From contig NZ_CP036273.1 in the NCBI RefSeq assembly GCF_007747215.1, forward strand, positions 1,782,322-1,846,321: a DNA stretch of 64,000 nt, read 5' to 3'. This document shows, in pieces, positions 49,620-56,962 of the stretch (the first letter of the stretch is position 1; the number at the start of each line of letters is the position of its first letter). The position numbers and the translations under genes are program-made. Source of the DNA: Urbifossiella limnaea (GTDB taxonomy: Bacteria > Planctomycetota > Planctomycetia > Gemmatales > Gemmataceae). Below the pieces are notes generated by a model. The model searched no databases. It had not been told where the DNA came from and saw only the letters and a program-made list of their open reading frames with translations.

Positions 49620-52600
49620 TCAACGCACCCGGCGGCGCTCCTGGTACAGCCCCGGCGTCGTCGGCTCGTCGCTCACGAACCACGGCACGCCGTTCCGCAG
49701 GTACATCTTCCGCTGCTCGGCGCCGTTCAGCGGCCGAGCGCCCACCCGGCCGAACACGCCGATCTGGTTGCCGGCCTCGTCCACGGCGCGGTCGCGGTCC
49801 AGGCCGCGGGCGATGCTCAGAATCTTCCCCTCGTGCGGCTTGAACGTCGCCACCAGCCGCGGCGTTGGCTTGGGGCTGAAGCCCTCGTAGCCCGGCGTCT
49901 CCGGCGACGTGATCTGCACCACCCGCATCCCGTTCTTGCCGTCGGCGACGTAGCCGATGAGGCTCGTGTACGTCATCCCGAGCTTGATGTCGCGCACGTC
50001 GTTCATGCAGCCGCCGGCGTTGAACACCTGGTCCACCTTCGGCTCGGCCGCGTTCACGATGTCGAGGATCACCAGCCCGCGCGACCCGGCGGCGACGTAG
50101 GCGTACGTGCGGGCCAGGTAGATGCTGTGGGCGTCGGCCCCCATGCGGATCAGCGACTTCGGCTGCGGCGCCGCCGGGTCGGTGATGTCCAGCACCTTCA
50201 CGCCCTCCTCGTCGCAGACGTAGCAGTAGCGCAGCTGCGTCGCCACCATCCGCGGCTTCTTCAGGAACGGCTCGCCGACCACGTTCACCACCCGCGGCTC
50301 GGTCGGCTTGTCGATGTCGATGACGACCAGCCCGGCGTCGCACGACACGAACAGGTGCGTGCCGTGGACGTGGGCGTGCCGCGCCCCGCACAGCAGGCCG
50401 TTCGGGTTGAACGTCACCGCCCGCTTCAGGAAGTTGTTCACCGGGTTGCCGTCGAGCGTCGCGGCCGCGCCGGTGACGATGAGCCCCTCGTACTTGTCGC
50501 AGATGTAGAGGTAGCCGAACAGCGGGTGGATCGGCTGCTCCTTGTTCGCCGGGCTCATCTTGCGGGTCGGGTCCACGGCCGGCGTACACGGCGCCGCCAC
50601 GTAGGTGGCGTAGCGCGACGGCAAGTAGAATCGCTGCCCGGCCGGCGACACAGGGGCCGTCGTGATGCGCTCGGCGAAGCCCTTGTGGTCGATGAACGCG
50701 ATGTCGAACACGCGGACGCCGGCGTCGCCGCACGCGGCGTAGAGGAACTCGCCGCGATTCTGCACCATCAGCACCTCGGACTTCTTGAACGGCCGCACCA
50801 ACCCCGTGAGCACGTCGCGGCCCGGGTGCTCGTGCGAGAACTCCAGCAGGCCGCCGCGCTCGACGTGCTTGCGGTAGTGGTCGGGGAAGGCGTAGCGGTG
50901 CAGGTCGGTGCCGTACACCGCCTGCGGCTCGCTCGACTCGGCCACGTTCACGCCGAACAAGCCTTCCTCGCCGGCCGCCGCCCACGCGTACTTGCCGACG
51001 AAGTTGACGAAGCCGGTGCCGTGCATCATCAGCTGGGCCATCCAGGCGTTGTTGTCGTTCCGCTGCGACAGGTGGCAGTCGCTGCACTGCTTCGTCTCGC
51101 GGACGCCCTTGCCGCGCACCGTGTGCGGCACGTTCGTACTGAACGCCTGGCCACTGTACCCCTCGGCGCTCACCGTCTGCTGCTGGATGTAGATCGTCTC
51201 GCGGTTGCCGTTCTGCGACGAGACGTGAATCGCGCAGCTGGAGCGGCTCGGGTTGATCTTGTTGCCGGTCACGTCGCCGTCGCGGGCGAGCATGTACACG
51301 TCGTCGCGGAGGGTCTGGAAGTTGTACGCGGTGTAGTTCCGCCCCACGTCGCCGTCGGCGTGGAGGTTCGGCGCCTTGATGTTGGCCCGCTGGGGCAGGT
51401 GGCACCCGAAGCAGCTCGGGTTCCACGCCGAGTGGCAGGCGATGCAGCTCATGTTGCTGTTGCCGTGGGCGGCGCACTCGGCCCCGCCCTCCAGCGCGTC
51501 CATGTCGCCCCACTCAAGCTGGCCCGTCTTCGCGTTGAAGCGGACGGTCTTGGCCAGCGCCGCCTTCGCGTTGTAGCGCGCGTGCGTGGGGTCGATCACG
51601 TCGCGGGTCTGCACCACCTCCCACCGCAGACCCGGCTCGACGCACGAGTTCTGGAAGAACCGCTTCCCGCCGCCGGGCAGGTCTTGCACCTCGAACCGCG
51701 GCTTGCCGAACGGCGTCTTCATCGCCAGCAGGTTCCGCCCGCCTTCCTCCGACGACGTGTACGACGCGGGGCCGCTCGTTTTGAGGGTGGCGTGCTTGCC
51801 CACGGTGCCGTGGCAGTCGATGCACGCGATCTCGGTCGCGGCGCGGACCTCGGCGTGGAGGCGGTTGTTGCCGTGCATGTCCTGTGAGAAGTGGCAGTCC
51901 ACGCAGTGCATCCCCTTCTCCATGTGGATGTCCATGAGGTGAACGGGCATGCCGCTGCGGCAGTCGTTGTGCGCCGCCTCCGCCTTCACCGCCGCCTTCG
52001 GCCCGGCCACGGGGTCGGCGAACTCCTTCTGCTTCTCCTCCTTGTGGAACTCCCGCGCCTTGTTCGGCCAGTCCACGCCCGCGGCCAGCAACTCGGGCGA
52101 CGGCGGGCCGACGAACGCGCCCTTGTGGTCGAGCAGGTTGCCGTGCCGGTCGCGCTTGAAGACGGCGCGGTACGCCCAGCCGTGGCTGTGGAAGTCGCCG
52201 AAGAACTGCCGGCTCGTGTGCTTGTTCAGCTGCGACAGTTCCGCGGTGAACTCGGGGTCCGACAGGTTCCCGCGGGCCGCGGACTCGTTCGGGTTCCGCA
52301 GCATGGAGCGGACCAGCTCCTCGCCGGTCGGGTTCTTCTGCTTCGCCGGGTACATCAGGTGGGCGTCGCTCTCCTCGTCCCACCACATGTAGCCGATGTA
52401 GGTGTTCATCACCGTGGTGCCGGGGTGCGTGTGGCACACCATGCACTGGCTGACCGGGATGCTGTTGGTGAACTTGTGGTCGATCGGGTGCCCCGACTGG
52501 TTCTTCGGGATCATCGGGTCGGTGTTCGCCGTCATGCCGCGGTTGCCGTACTTGGCGAACGGCCCGGAGTGGACCGGCGAGCGGTCGTTGGCGTACACGA

Positions 52601-53738
52601 CGTGGCACGCCGAGCAGCCGCTGCTGCGGTAGTCGCCGGGGTTGTCGTTGGTGCCGAGCATGTTCAGCGTCGGGTCGAACAGGCGCGTCTTGTTCGCGCT
52701 CACGAGCACGGGGTCGGTGCGGTTGCTGGTGCCGAGCCCGCGGAGGCTCAGGCGCGTGCGCGGGCGGCCGGGTTCTTCCATCCGCTCGGGGTTGCCGATT
52801 TCCGGCAGGAAGCGGCCGCCCGGCTCGAAGATGCGGAGGATGTTGCCGGGCTGGCTCATCTCGAACCGCGGCAGCGGGTACAGCGCCGCGATCACGCCGC
52901 GCTTCTGCTCTTCTTCCGACGGCGCGGGGTGGGTCTTGAGCATCAGCGGCGCCCCGGCCATGCCGTAGGCCTCGCCGAGCAGCGCGGGCTTCGAGGGGAG
53001 CGTGCCGTTGTTGTAAGCCGCGGCGCCCCACAGCATGCAGCCGGTGGCCATGATCTGCTTGCGGTTCGTCTGCACTTCCTTGGGGTGGCAGCCGGCGGTG
53101 CCGCAGCCGATGTGCGCGACGCGGAAGTCGCCGGGGTTCACGAACCGGATGAACTCGGGCGACTCGTGGTTGAGCAGCGTGTACGACCGCACCGGGTTCG
53201 CCCCGCCGGCCGGCCACAGGTGCGGGTTGCGCGGGGCGACGTGGGCCAGTTCCTTCACGGCGCAGCTGGCGTTGCCGCCGTGGCAGTCGGTGCAGCCGAT
53301 GCGGAGCGTCGGCTTGCAGTGCGGGTCGCCGACCGTCTGGTGACAGCCGACGCAGCCGGCGGACTTGGCCGCCGCTTCCGCCGCCGTCTGCTCCATCAGC
53401 CGAACGTTGGCCCACTCCGGCGGCATCGGGAACGGGTCGGTCGGGTCGGTGGACCAGTTCGGGTTCTGCAGGTCGCGGGTGCCGTCGCCGTGCGGCAGGA
53501 TGACGTTGCGCGGCACGACCGGCCGCGGCACGGCGGCCGCGGCGGGCGTCACGGGGTGGTCGGGGGTGATGCGGGCGGCACCGGGCGGAGCGTCGCCGCC
53601 GACGCGCGCGCTGCCGGGCGGCGCGTCGGCGGCGGCGACGTACAGCGAGAAGCCGAGCGGCCCGCCCACGAGCGCGGCGAACACGGCCAGCCCGGCGACG
53701 GCCGAGCGGATCGAAACTGGCTTGTCGCCCGCGTCCAT
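49620..53738 (-). CDS. Multiheme cytochrome c fused to LVIVD-repeat propeller
   Basis: The protein has 1372 residues from ATG 53738. An N-terminal membrane segment (AVAGLAVFAALVGGPLGFSL) leads to a periplasmic chain. Nine canonical CXXCH haem sites are read in order: CVGCH, CTDCH, CSACH, CMVCH, CVDCH, CIDCH, CIACH, CFGCH, CSDCH. A tenth, CGTAGCH, has the rare four-residue spacing (CX4CH). About residues 960-1340 form LVIVD-type repeats (AGLVVIDIDKPTEPRVV, EGVKVLDITDPAAPQPK, SRGLVILDIVNAAEPKV). It is likely an electron carrier or reductase/oxidase with a protein-binding propeller. No obvious redox partner gene is adjacent. Confidence 0.92.
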   Translation of the reverse strand: MDAGDKPVSIRSAVAGLAVFAALVGGPLGFSLYVAAADAPPGSARVGGDAPPGAARITPDHPVTPAAAAVPRPVVPRNVILPHGDGTRDLQNPNWSTDPTDPFPMPPEWANVRLMEQTAAEAAAKSAGCVGCHQTVGDPHCKPTLRIGCTDCHGGNASCAVKELAHVAPRNPHLWPAGGANPVRSYTLLNHESPEFIRFVNPGDFRVAHIGCGTAGCHPKEVQTNRKQIMATGCMLWGAAAYNNGTLPSKPALLGEAYGMAGAPLMLKTHPAPSEEEQKRGVIAALYPLPRFEMSQPGNILRIFEPGGRFLPEIGNPERMEEPGRPRTRLSLRGLGTSNRTDPVLVSANKTRLFDPTLNMLGTNDNPGDYRSSGCSACHVVYANDRSPVHSGPFAKYGNRGMTANTDPMIPKNQSGHPIDHKFTNSIPVSQCMVCHTHPGTTVMNTYIGYMWWDEESDAHLMYPAKQKNPTGEELVRSMLRNPNESAARGNLSDPEFTAELSQLNKHTSRQFFGDFHSHGWAYRAVFKRDRHGNLLDHKGAFVGPPSPELLAAGVDWPNKAREFHKEEKQKEFADPVAGPKAAVKAEAAHNDCRSGMPVHLMDIHMEKGMHCVDCHFSQDMHGNNRLHAEVRAATEIACIDCHGTVGKHATLKTSGPASYTSSEEGGRNLLAMKTPFGKPRFEVQDLPGGGKRFFQNSCVEPGLRWEVVQTRDVIDPTHARYNAKAALAKTVRFNAKTGQLEWGDMDALEGGAECAAHGNSNMSCIACHSAWNPSCFGCHLPQRANIKAPNLHADGDVGRNYTAYNFQTLRDDVYMLARDGDVTGNKINPSRSSCAIHVSSQNGNRETIYIQQQTVSAEGYSGQAFSTNVPHTVRGKGVRETKQCSDCHLSQRNDNNAWMAQLMMHGTGFVNFVGKYAWAAAGEEGLFGVNVAESSEPQAVYGTDLHRYAFPDHYRKHVERGGLLEFSHEHPGRDVLTGLVRPFKKSEVLMVQNRGEFLYAACGDAGVRVFDIAFIDHKGFAERITTAPVSPAGQRFYLPSRYATYVAAPCTPAVDPTRKMSPANKEQPIHPLFGYLYICDKYEGLIVTGAAATLDGNPVNNFLKRAVTFNPNGLLCGARHAHVHGTHLFVSCDAGLVVIDIDKPTEPRVVNVVGEPFLKKPRMVATQLRYCYVCDEEGVKVLDITDPAAPQPKSLIRMGADAHSIYLARTYAYVAAGSRGLVILDIVNAAEPKVDQVFNAGGCMNDVRDIKLGMTYTSLIGYVADGKNGMRVVQITSPETPGYEGFSPKPTPRLVATFKPHEGKILSIARGLDRDRAVDEAGNQIGVFGRVGARPLNGAEQRKMYLRNGVPWFVSDEPTTPGLYQERRRVR

Positions 53739-53805
53739 GCGGCACCCCCAGACCCGCGGCAAGAGCCCACGGAACCCGGCGCCTATACCCGTAGTCGTGC
53801 GGGTG

Positions 53806-55104
53806 TCAAGGCGAACACCCGGCGCCGCGGCTCGGCGCTTCGGGCGCCATGTGCGTCAGCGCCAACCCGGCGGCGAGGGCGCTGCTGAGTACCGCGAGCG
53901 CCACCACCGCCCGCCACATCCGGCCGCGGGCGGCCGCCTCGTACTCCGCCCGCGCGGCGGCCCACGCCGTCTTCCGCGCCTCGCCGCTGCGTGCGACTGC
54001 GGCGGCCTGCTCGCGGTCGAACTCGCGCAACTTCTCCTCCCAGCCCGTCCGGTGGGCGATCAGGATGCTCGTCACGACGCCGGCGTCCGGCGGGCGCTCG
54101 TCGGCGTCCGCGGCCAGGCACGACTTCGCCAGCGCGACCAGTTCCGGGGCGGCGTCCGAGCGGTCGAGGCGGTCGAAGGCGTCGGACAGGTCGGCGAGGC
54201 GGGCGCGGCGCAGCACGTCGTCGGCGTCGCGGCCGGTGAACGGCGGGCGACCCGTAAGGACGGCGCACAGCACGCCGCCGAGCGCGAACACGTCGGCCCG
54301 CGCGTCCACCGCTCCGCCGCGTGCCTGTTCCGGGGCCATGTACGCGGGCGTTCCCTCGGCCACGAACATCGAGCGGTGCACGACGATGACCTGGTCCGGC
54401 CCGGTGGCGGCGTTCAGCACGGGGTCCAGGTCGTCGGGCTGGCGCGCCGTCGTGTCCAGGGCCAGCCCCCAGTCCATGACCTGCACCTCGCCGAACGGGC
54501 CGACCATCACGTTCGCCGGCTTCAGGTCGCGGTGGACGACGCCGCGGGCGTGCGCGAACCCGACCGCCTGGCACACTTGTTCCAGGATTTGCAGGGCGCC
54601 CGGCGAGTCGGGGGCGGTGATGTCCAGGTCGTCGGTGGAGCGCGACGCCGGCCGCTGCCAGCGCGCGGCCAGCACCGCGGCGAGGGTGCGGCCGCGGATC
54701 AATTTCATGGCCATGAACGGCCGCCCGTCGGCGAGCAGGCCGAGGCGGTACACGGGCGGCACCCCCGGGTGCGGCAGCCGGGCGGTCGTGCGAACTTCAG
54801 CGGCGAACCGGGCCGCGGCCAGCGCGTCGCCGCTGAACTCGGGCAGCAGCGTCTTGATCGCCACCTCGCGGCCGAGGGCCAACTCGCGGGCGGCGAACAC
54901 GACGCCCATGCCGCCGCGGGCGATCTCGCCGAGCACCTCGAACCCGGGGACGACGAACCCGCCGAGGCCGGGGAACGGGCTCGGCGTGTCGTTGCCGGGC
55001 CGGCGGACGGTCCGTTCCGGGTCGGCGTCGCGGCGGGTGGCGTTGGGGTCAGACCGCGGGGGCGGCGGCGGCCGGCCCGTTCCGAACGGGTCGCTGAACG
55101 ACAT
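53806..55104 (-). CDS. Ser/Thr protein kinase, membrane-anchored at C terminus
   Basis: The protein has 432 residues from ATG 55104. After a Pro-rich leader of about 45 residues the kinase domain runs to about 350: ARGGMGVVF, Lys84 in VAIK, HRDLKPANVM (Asp193), DWG at 211 in place of DFG, and APEQ. The DWG variant is common in planctomycete kinases and is compatible with activity. A charged helix (WEEKLREFDREQAAAVARSG) leads to a C-terminal transmembrane segment (VVALAVLSSALAAGLALT), with almost nothing beyond. No sensor domain is present. Its substrate is unknown. The cytochrome gene starts about 67 nt downstream of its stop, on the same strand. Confidence 0.92.
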   Translation of the reverse strand: MSFSDPFGTGRPPPPPRSDPNATRRDADPERTVRRPGNDTPSPFPGLGGFVVPGFEVLGEIARGGMGVVFAARELALGREVAIKTLLPEFSGDALAAARFAAEVRTTARLPHPGVPPVYRLGLLADGRPFMAMKLIRGRTLAAVLAARWQRPASRSTDDLDITAPDSPGALQILEQVCQAVGFAHARGVVHRDLKPANVMVGPFGEVQVMDWGLALDTTARQPDDLDPVLNAATGPDQVIVVHRSMFVAEGTPAYMAPEQARGGAVDARADVFALGGVLCAVLTGRPPFTGRDADDVLRRARLADLSDAFDRLDRSDAAPELVALAKSCLAADADERPPDAGVVTSILIAHRTGWEEKLREFDREQAAAVARSGEARKTAWAAARAEYEAAARGRMWRAVVALAVLSSALAAGLALTHMAPEAPSRGAGCSP

Positions 55105-55696
55105 GGCGGCATCCCTGGCGCGAATGGCACCTCGATTGTGGGAGCTCCCGCGTCCGGGTTCCACGACTGGCCCGGATTTGGTCCGATTTCGCGCCGCCGC
55201 TGCGGCGGGGGCTGAATCAGTGCTGGCGCGAACCGGCGCGTCGAAAAAGTTGCGACGGGGCTTGAATAGTGAACGGGCGTTCCGTATTGTAGGGGATGAG
55301 GTGTCGGGTGGGGTTCAAGCCTGAGTTCGTCGCGGCCCGGACCGCGCAACAAGAGTGGCCGGTCAACCCCGCCTCGACCCGTGGGTCCCAACGCGAGCCG
55401 CGCGGTACGCCTCCTTCAGGAGGTGCCGGGGGGCGCCGGTCGTCCGGGCGACTGGCCGCAGGGTCGAACCTGCAAACCCCCTGGCTAACGGGTGCGGCCC
55501 GGAGGGCGCGTCTGTGCCGAAACCCGACACCCCGCCGCCGGCGGCCGTCGCACCGCGTTCCCGCGCGGCCGACGACCGCCGGTTGGCGTTCGCCGCGTCT
55601 CGCGGCTCACGTTTCCGAAGTGGGGTTGATTCGTTCCCGGCCGGCGGTATGGGCGGGGTTCAACTGTCGGAACTGTGCCTGGACGGGGGGCGGCCC
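55105..55696. other. 592-nt intergenic region between divergent genes
   Basis: The gap separates the kinase start (minus) and the Lpg1974-type barrel (plus). A frame continuous with the barrel gene is open from 55355, but it has no signal-peptide-like or conserved sequence, so it is not taken as coding. No RNA gene or strong hairpin is recognised. A long upstream leader for the barrel gene is possible. Confidence 0.5.
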
Positions 55697-56962
55697 ATGC
55701 CGTGGGAGAACGGTCGGGTGCTGGTCGTCGCGGCGGGGCTGCTCTGGGCCGGCGCGCAAGCCCACGCCCAGGCGCCGCACGCGCCGGGGGCGTATCCGCC
55801 GGGCGCGGCGCGGGTCGGCGTCCCCGACGAACCGCTAATGCCGGCGGGCGCGAAGGCCGACCCGCCCAAGGAATTGCCGACCATCCCGGCAGCACCGATC
55901 AAGACGCTCCCCGCTGCTCCGCTCGTGCCACCGCCCGCGCCGCCGGCGCACGCGGAGCCGAACCTGTCGGGCGTCAAAGACCTGACGCCGCCCGGCTTCG
56001 AGCACCACGAACCCGCCCACGGCGCGACCGGGCACGGCGGCCACGACGGGCACCACGAGACGCCGGGGAACCTGCTGCCGTCGTACCCCGAGGAGGGCGG
56101 CTGGTACGCCAGCGCCGACTTCCTGCTACTGCGGCCGCGGCGCGGGGCGTTCGACTTCGCCATCCCCAGCACGGCCGGCGGGCTCGTCACCAACGGCCCC
56201 GTGCAGAGCCTGAACTACGAGCTGCGCACCGGCGTCCGCGCCGAGCTCGGCTACCGCCTCGGCCACTCGCACTGGGAAGTCCTGGCCGGGTACACCTACT
56301 TCCGCAGCAGCGCGTTCGACGCCGTCACCGCCGGCCCCGGCCAGGCGCTCCTGCCGACGCTCACGCGCCCCGGCCTCACCGACACGGTGTCGTTCGCCGC
56401 GGCCGACGCGAACCTCGTTTACAACGTTTACGACGCGCTGGTCGCCCGGCGGTTCGTGGTCGGCGAGCACGTGGCCCTGCGGATGCTCGGCGGCATGCGG
56501 TTCGCCAACATCCAGCAGAGCTTCAACGCCTACTACGACGGCATCGACGCCCGGCAGGCGCAGGTGCGGGCCGAGTCGCAGTTCCAGGGCTTCGGCCCGG
56601 TCGTCGGCGGCGAGGCGGTGTGGGCCGGGTGGAACGGCCTCCACCTGTACGGCCGGGCCAACGGCGGCCTGCTGACGGGGAACTCGGAGAACCCGCTGCT
56701 GGAGGCGAACGGCAACGGCGGCGCGGTCTTCGCCAACACCCGCTACGACATCCAGAAGGTGGTGCCGTTCGCCTCCGTCGGCGTCGGCGGCGGCTGGCAG
56801 TACCGCACGTTCACGTTCCGGGCGGGCTACGAGATCACGCACTGGTTCGGGCTGATCGACCAGCCGCGGTTCTCCGACGACGTGGGCCGCGGGCGGTTCG
56901 TGCCGACGCCCGCGAACCTGTCGCTGGAAGGGCTGTTCGTGCAGATGGCGGTGCAGTTCTAA
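55697..56962 (+). CDS. Lpg1974-type outer membrane beta-barrel protein
   Basis: The protein has 421 residues from ATG 55697. Signal peptide: RVLVVAAGLLWAGAQAHAQA. A Pro-rich linker holds a His-rich stretch (GATGHGGHDGHHETPG) that could bind metal. The barrel part has GGWYASADFLLLRPRRGAF at its start, then YELRTGVRAELGYRLGHSHW, RRFVVGEHVALRMLGGMRFA and TFTFRAGYEITHWFGLIDQP, and ends in LFVQMAVQF with the terminal Phe of outer-membrane barrels. It matches the Lpg1974 / Legionella major-OMP-like barrels common in planctomycetes. Confidence 0.88.
   Translation: MPWENGRVLVVAAGLLWAGAQAHAQAPHAPGAYPPGAARVGVPDEPLMPAGAKADPPKELPTIPAAPIKTLPAAPLVPPPAPPAHAEPNLSGVKDLTPPGFEHHEPAHGATGHGGHDGHHETPGNLLPSYPEEGGWYASADFLLLRPRRGAFDFAIPSTAGGLVTNGPVQSLNYELRTGVRAELGYRLGHSHWEVLAGYTYFRSSAFDAVTAGPGQALLPTLTRPGLTDTVSFAAADANLVYNVYDALVARRFVVGEHVALRMLGGMRFANIQQSFNAYYDGIDARQAQVRAESQFQGFGPVVGGEAVWAGWNGLHLYGRANGGLLTGNSENPLLEANGNGGAVFANTRYDIQKVVPFASVGVGGGWQYRTFTFRAGYEITHWFGLIDQPRFSDDVGRGRFVPTPANLSLEGLFVQMAVQF

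Follow-up and report, generated by a model that had tools for sequence, protein, structure and literature searches.

In Geobacter, extHIJKLMNOPQS is a selenite/tellurite gene cluster whose ExtM is a 12-haem cytochrome; its products include cytochromes with 12, 10 and 5 haems, a membrane protein of the b type and a porin, ExtI, that differs from the known pcc porins (PMC5877670). ExtI has been linked to the reduction of selenite/tellurite and is dispensable for that of Fe(III) citrate (PMC5877670). A further set, the putative porin-cytochrome complex 4 (PCC4), was described from Zeta-, Gamma- and Alphaproteobacteria and Planctomycetes (He et al. 2017, PMC5566968). It includes a porin, multihaem cytochromes with 4, 5 (CX4CH counted) and 10 sites, and an iron-sulphur (Fe-S) gene upstream of a membrane protein; SGXXG plus two WX3HX13H motifs is the published signature of the PCC3 and PCC4 membrane proteins (PMC5566968). 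Here we analysed a 64,000-nucleotide stretch of the Urbifossiella limnaea genome (GCF_007747215.1, NZ_CP036273.1, positions 1,782,322 to 1,846,321; hereafter, the window), focusing on a gene for a propeller-capped decahaem cytochrome. This protein and its homologues are given the working label LVIVD10.

Results

Ten conserved haem sites and a propeller in one chain

The initial annotation had listed nine CXXCH motifs and one CGTAGCH, with LVIVD-type repeats following in the same chain, and both observations held in the motif count and the Pfam search. The CXXCH sites are at residues 137, 157, 383, 440, 620, 647, 773, 784 and 893. Shuffles of the protein contained on average 0.04 CXXCH and 0.035 CX4CH motifs, which excludes a chance origin. 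Three LVIVD (PF08309) repeats were matched at 52.5 bits (E 3e-14), against a Pfam gathering cut-off of 20.2. An AlphaFold2 model covering residues 125-1324 showed a confident, seven-bladed propeller, and this matched seven-bladed propellers of the lactonase type and of archaeal S-layers over ~300 residues (Z 29-31, root-mean-square deviation 2.5-2.8).

Homologue searches recovered a conserved family that keeps the ten haem sites. A pattern search across 84,980 species genomes returned 65 loci, and strong matches were found in 28 of 59 relatives. Carriers beyond the Planctomycetes include Nitrosomonas, Crenotrichaceae, Sediminihaliea and other Proteobacteria, Nitrospirae, Acidobacteria and KSB1; a sample of 398 genomes from the phylum of Sediminihaliea contained 11. 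Haem sites 2-10 were intact in all rows of a 66-sequence alignment and haem 1 in 65, the exception being a truncated row. With multiple conserved C-Xn-CH sites, LVIVD10 is by its sequence a multihaem c-type cytochrome. Outside the motifs, histidines 148, 425, 429, 446, 527, 608, 613, 630, 766 and 880 were invariant or so in all rows but one, as was Met238. We infer that these histidines supply the distal ligand of each of the ten haems, because ten six-coordinate haems need that number.

Haem 3 occurs with two spacings

The CGTAGCH site corresponds to haem 3, which is split evenly in the alignment between CX4CH (33 rows) and CXXCH (33 rows). The longer form was found in Gemmataceae, related planctomycete genomes and one Acidiferrales metagenome-assembled genome, and the shorter one in Pirellulaceae and the other phyla. 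The two cysteines and the histidine are invariant (66/66), and the inserted residues vary (CGTAGCH, CGTSGCH, CGTTNCH, CGTVNCH and CGQEGCH); sequencing error as the origin of CX4CH is ruled out by these varied inserts across 33 of the 66 rows. On a FastTree phylogeny of LVIVD10 from which the haem-3 spacing columns were left out, and whose supports are approximate, at least three changes of spacing are needed, among them that of one genome (L018, G032) with CXXCH within the CX4CH clade. HHalign places CGTAGCH on CGQCH of the 12-haem ExtM-like proteins. CXXCH is thus probably the older state, since this outgroup has it at the aligned position, and CX4CH appears to be a derived, lineage-specific insertion of two residues at an ordinary ancestral haem site.

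CX4CH had initially been tied, in some species, to special lyases, an expectation that the assembly genes did not bear out. Genomes of either spacing carry 1-3 Cytochrom_C_asm (PF01578) genes, mostly two, one large and usually one small. Dedicated haem lyases have been described for CXXCK and CX15CH, with CX4CH not named (PMC3601427, PMC6976685). Because the assembly-gene sets are alike and dedicated lyases are described for those other motifs, no special lyase is indicated, and the idea of one for CX4CH was dropped on the like PF01578 gene numbers. The switch suggests that gain or loss of CX4CH requires no additional lyase gene. It is also a natural experiment, as orthologous proteins hold the same haem by CXXCH or by CX4CH, so that one can measure directly how spacing affects potential, geometry and assembly.

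A porin and redox proteins accompany LVIVD10

The neighbouring genes of the LVIVD10 loci were grouped by clustering. In ~23 Planctomycete loci, and also in other phyla where the locus is well flanked, a porin gene lies directly upstream of LVIVD10 at a distance of about -66 to +277 bp, short overlaps being common. The two genes adjoin also in Nitrosomonas, Crenotrichaceae, Nitrospirae, KSB1, Acidobacteria and eleven more proteobacterial genomes. The porin was next to LVIVD10 in ten of ten further proteobacterial genomes, with an HbpS-like gene before it; eight have the order C554(4+CX4CH)-HbpS-porin-LVIVD10, and genes for a redox protein, a membrane protein and a ten-haem cytochrome, in this order, are often close by. 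Among the 59 relatives, with co-occurrence thresholds set by hand, the porin was detected in all 28 genomes with LVIVD10 and in 1 of 31 without it (Fisher p 5e-16, uncorrected for kinship), and the other conduit parts co-occur with LVIVD10 in 27 of 28. Genome G037, of the same order, holds what looks like a partial system, with HbpS, a partial porin match, matches to the membrane protein and the ten-haem cytochrome, and with neither LVIVD10 nor the C554 partner.

The porin was modelled as an all-beta, 18-stranded, AlgE/OprD-like protein (Z ~28) at a mean predicted local distance difference test score (pLDDT) of 66.6. The membrane protein, predicted to be of the b type with two b haems, bears SGXXG and a pair of WX3HX13H motifs in most relatives' loci. 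The redox protein of the Nitrosomonas loci combines Pyr_redox, cyclic-nucleotide-binding (cNMP-binding) and 4Fe-4S domains. C554-like partners that are 'tetrahaem' by CXXCH bear a further conserved CX4CH (for example L084:11581-12891 and L137:5093-6508), in Nitrosomonas too, and are probably five-haem proteins because this site adds to their four CXXCH; a neighbouring paralogue has five CXXCH. Counts by CXXCH alone thus seem to undercount the haems of the partner cytochromes.

An FHA-cyclase gene (Guanylate_cyc domain, FHA by eye) adjoins LVIVD10 at L031:5609-7573 (-) and in ~15 other Planctomycete loci; it is absent from the U. limnaea window. Cyclic-nucleotide control of the conduit is possible, because this cyclase adjoins LVIVD10 while the input protein has cNMP-binding domains.

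Genomic setting in Urbifossiella limnaea

The initial annotation had found no neighbouring redox gene, and within the window this is still so, with no other open reading frame (ORF) of at least 100 amino acids (aa) having two or more CXXCH. It had also left the partner unknown, a statement that we correct here: in addition to the porin that adjoins LVIVD10 in many relatives, a porin and four multihaem cytochromes are encoded elsewhere in this genome. The porin gene is at 1.514 Mb and HbpS genes are at 1.637 and 2.424 Mb. A cluster at 2.300-2.313 Mb (L137:1906-9138, L140:1610-6938) encodes one five-haem, two 4+CX4CH and one ten-haem cytochrome together with a predicted b-type membrane protein, a NuoE/NuoF fusion and a 4Fe-4S/cNMP protein. 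By inspection, this copy of the membrane protein has SGXXG and both WX3HX13H motifs.

In the window, a protein kinase gene precedes LVIVD10 on the same strand (Table 1), and the two are possibly co-transcribed, judging from their spacing. An AMP-binding enzyme gene also lies beyond the kinase gene, and two ORFs without a Pfam match are on the other side of LVIVD10.

Table 1 Features of LVIVD10 and nearby genes, in window positions.
Feature	Positions	Strand	Basis or remark
LVIVD10 gene	49620..53762	-	1380 aa from TTG at 53762; 1372 aa from ATG at 53738
Putative Sec-type signal sequence (MDAGDKPVSIRSAVAGLAVFAALVGGPLGFSLYVAAADA)	53600..53738	-	by inspection; end approximate
Haem 1 CVGCH	53340..53354	-	homologue alignment, ORF coordinates
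Haem 2 CTDCH	53280..53294	-	homologue alignment, ORF coordinates
Haem 3 CGTAGCH (CX4CH; other lineages CXXCH)	53085..53105	-	residue 220; homologue and HHalign alignments
Haem 4 CSACH	52602..52616	-	homologue alignment, ORF coordinates
Haem 5 CMVCH	52431..52445	-	homologue alignment, ORF coordinates
Haem 6 CVDCH	51891..51905	-	homologue alignment, ORF coordinates
Haem 7 CIDCH	51810..51824	-	homologue alignment, ORF coordinates
Haem 8 CIACH	51432..51446	-	homologue alignment, ORF coordinates
Haem 9 CFGCH	51399..51413	-	homologue alignment, ORF coordinates
Haem 10 CSDCH	51072..51086	-	homologue alignment, ORF coordinates
Seven-bladed beta-propeller with LVIVD repeats	49791..50996	-	residues ~923-1324; Pfam, AlphaFold2, VIA-align Z ~30
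Ser/Thr protein kinase gene	53806..55164	-	Pkinase E 5.8e-31; 68 bp upstream of LVIVD10 ATG
Legionella_OMP-type barrel gene, beyond kinase	55355-56962	+	differs from the conserved porin partner

Discussion

A putative electron conduit across the envelope

We propose, with a probability of about two in three, that LVIVD10 is the large exported cytochrome of a PCC4/Ext-like porin-cytochrome conduit, for electron uptake or discharge, linking the inner membrane with the outer membrane or the outside. The data show the anatomy of the protein, its conservation, its homology to ExtM-type cytochromes, the adjacency and co-occurrence of the genes and the spacing switch; the complex, the electron path, its location and its function are inferred. 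LVIVD10 would be an ExtM-type haem domain minus two haem sites, plus a C-terminal seven-bladed propeller. The path would start at a flavin/Fe-S protein that is NAD(P)H-linked and carries a cyclic-nucleotide-binding domain. From there it would pass through the membrane protein with its two predicted b haems, the periplasmic ten-haem cytochrome and the C554-like cytochromes (4+CX4CH and five-haem), and end at the 18-strand porin together with LVIVD10 and the HbpS-like protein. The propeller most likely docks to or caps the porin, the HbpS-like protein or the final partner, and the CX4CH site would carry an ordinary covalent haem and no new active site. The combination of haems and a propeller had initially been read as suiting electron transfer with a surface partner; the fusion stands, electron transfer is a likely role, and the partner is now more broadly one of the envelope. 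If correct, the proposal gives Gemmata-type planctomycetes a candidate route for electrons across the envelope, with its genes named.

Several points weigh against this conduit. Its genes are spread over several loci in the genus of the window, which is weaker than one operon, and the co-occurrence among relatives lacks a correction for kinship. Much of the haem domain was modelled at low pLDDT, which bears on haem packing and on the continuity of the wire. As modelled, the 18-strand AlgE-like barrel has a smaller diameter than barrels of the MtrB type; a passage for a haem wire is not evident, and a small molecule may be what goes through the porin instead.

The last point would suit a periplasmic or outer-membrane reductase whose substrate, a soluble oxyanion of a metal or metalloid, comes in via the porin, as with Geobacter ext, whose part list is alike and whose ExtI is tied to selenite/tellurite reduction (PMC5877670). 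The haem domain of LVIVD10 is indeed homologous to ExtM, and the porin resembles narrow channel types. We nevertheless consider this reading unlikely, as LVIVD10 scores 59.7 bits with the ExtM model (NF040943) against an equivalog cut-off of 800, and no test links the porin here to ExtI. Some carriers, aerobic ammonia oxidisers and aerobic planctomycetes, are not known to respire metalloids, which also counts against it. LVIVD10 could instead store electrons or act as a scaffold in the periplasm, with the porin and the HbpS-like protein co-inherited for haem or iron uptake; the HbpS-like domain is annotated as haem-degrading, and the barrel type is common to ordinary uptake porins. This is a poor explanation, because genes for a b-type membrane protein and for NAD(P)H/Fe-S input proteins stay linked across relatives and every redox component tested co-occurs with LVIVD10. 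That the CX4CH site is a vestige without haem is suggested by its unusual spacing, and is highly improbable: its ligating residues are invariant though the inserted residues vary, the orthologous site is CXXCH in other lineages, and CX4CH is conserved in the partner cytochromes too, those of Nitrosomonas included.

The envelope conduit may also be regulated. In a tentative and rather doubtful extension, it would be an undescribed NAD(P)H-linked, cyclic-nucleotide-gated system across aerobic Planctomycetes, ammonia oxidisers and other phyla, in which the cNMP-binding domains of the input protein are fused to or lie beside a Pyr_redox or NuoEF module, the path ends in the propeller-capped, ExtM-related cytochrome, and toggling between CXXCH and CX4CH perhaps tunes the redox potential.

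Comparison with known systems

The propeller of LVIVD10 is like the Pfam LVIVD/YVTN propellers in its repeats, which score over the cut-off, and in its seven-bladed model, and differs in being fused to a multihaem domain. A sequence search of the PDB with the single protein found no homologue and one with the family profile found weak YncE propeller and NrfA matches only; no PDB chain spans both domains by sequence. On LVIVD domains together with multihaem cytochromes the literature searched held nothing relevant; it also held no paper that links Gemmata to multihaem extracellular electron transfer and no description of the propeller fusion and haem-spacing switch. The LVIVD10 cluster is not described in the passages seen of a paper on Nitrosomonas communis at electrodes (PMC10415592).

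MtrCAB, MtoAB and PioAB share the functional idea, decahaem cytochromes with an outer-membrane barrel. No MtrA/DmsE or MtrC/OmcA model of NCBIfam matched LVIVD10 at a maximum E of 10, a search in which the HMMER filters drop most matches above E ~0.1, and by these models LVIVD10 appears to lie outside the Mtr/Mto family. Among the structural matches listed, its porin, modelled with 18 strands, resembles AlgE/OprD rather than the large MtrB-type barrel, which has 28 predicted trans-membrane motifs (PMC5877670). The undecahaem Uet pathway of Tenderiales and Gallionella likewise has a porin, a large multihaem cytochrome and NHL-repeat proteins (PMC10734462); compared by description, its NHL proteins are separate genes and its haem counts and families differ.

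The ten haem sites of LVIVD10 are collinear with 10 of the 12 in ExtM-like proteins (HHalign E 7.8e-52, 632 columns). Identity with ExtM is ruled out by the bit score given above and by ten rather than 12 haems, and LVIVD10 differs further in the fused seven-bladed propeller and, in some lineages, in CX4CH. The Geobacter ext cluster also contains a porin, a b-type membrane protein and cytochromes with ten and five haems (PMC5877670), whereas the partners of LVIVD10 (HbpS; NuoEF or Pyr_redox with cNMP-Fer4) come from other families. ExtM-like 12-haem cytochromes were also seen in proteobacteria (L169-L171; frames of 785-857 aa), with no LVIVD10-type porin in the available flanks.

The label PCC3 was rejected, since the haem counts of PCC3 cytochromes (medians 34 and 21; PMC5566968) far exceed the ten of LVIVD10. 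PCC4 as described lists one 10-haem protein and a tetrahaem cytochrome, whereas the LVIVD10 clusters have 5-site (4 CXXCH + CX4CH) and 10-site cytochromes, with two ten-haem proteins and no tetrahaem seen. The main text of PMC5566968 has no propeller, LVIVD domain or spacing switch. The LVIVD10-associated genes are moreover dispersed in the genus of the window, and the porin, adjacent to LVIVD10 in many relatives, is encoded elsewhere in the U. limnaea genome. Set side by side by description and motifs, both have a porin, 5- and 10-site cytochromes, a membrane protein with SGXXG and two WX3HX13H motifs, and an Fe-S gene upstream of it, and the LVIVD10 system is on these motifs and gene content best likened to PCC4.

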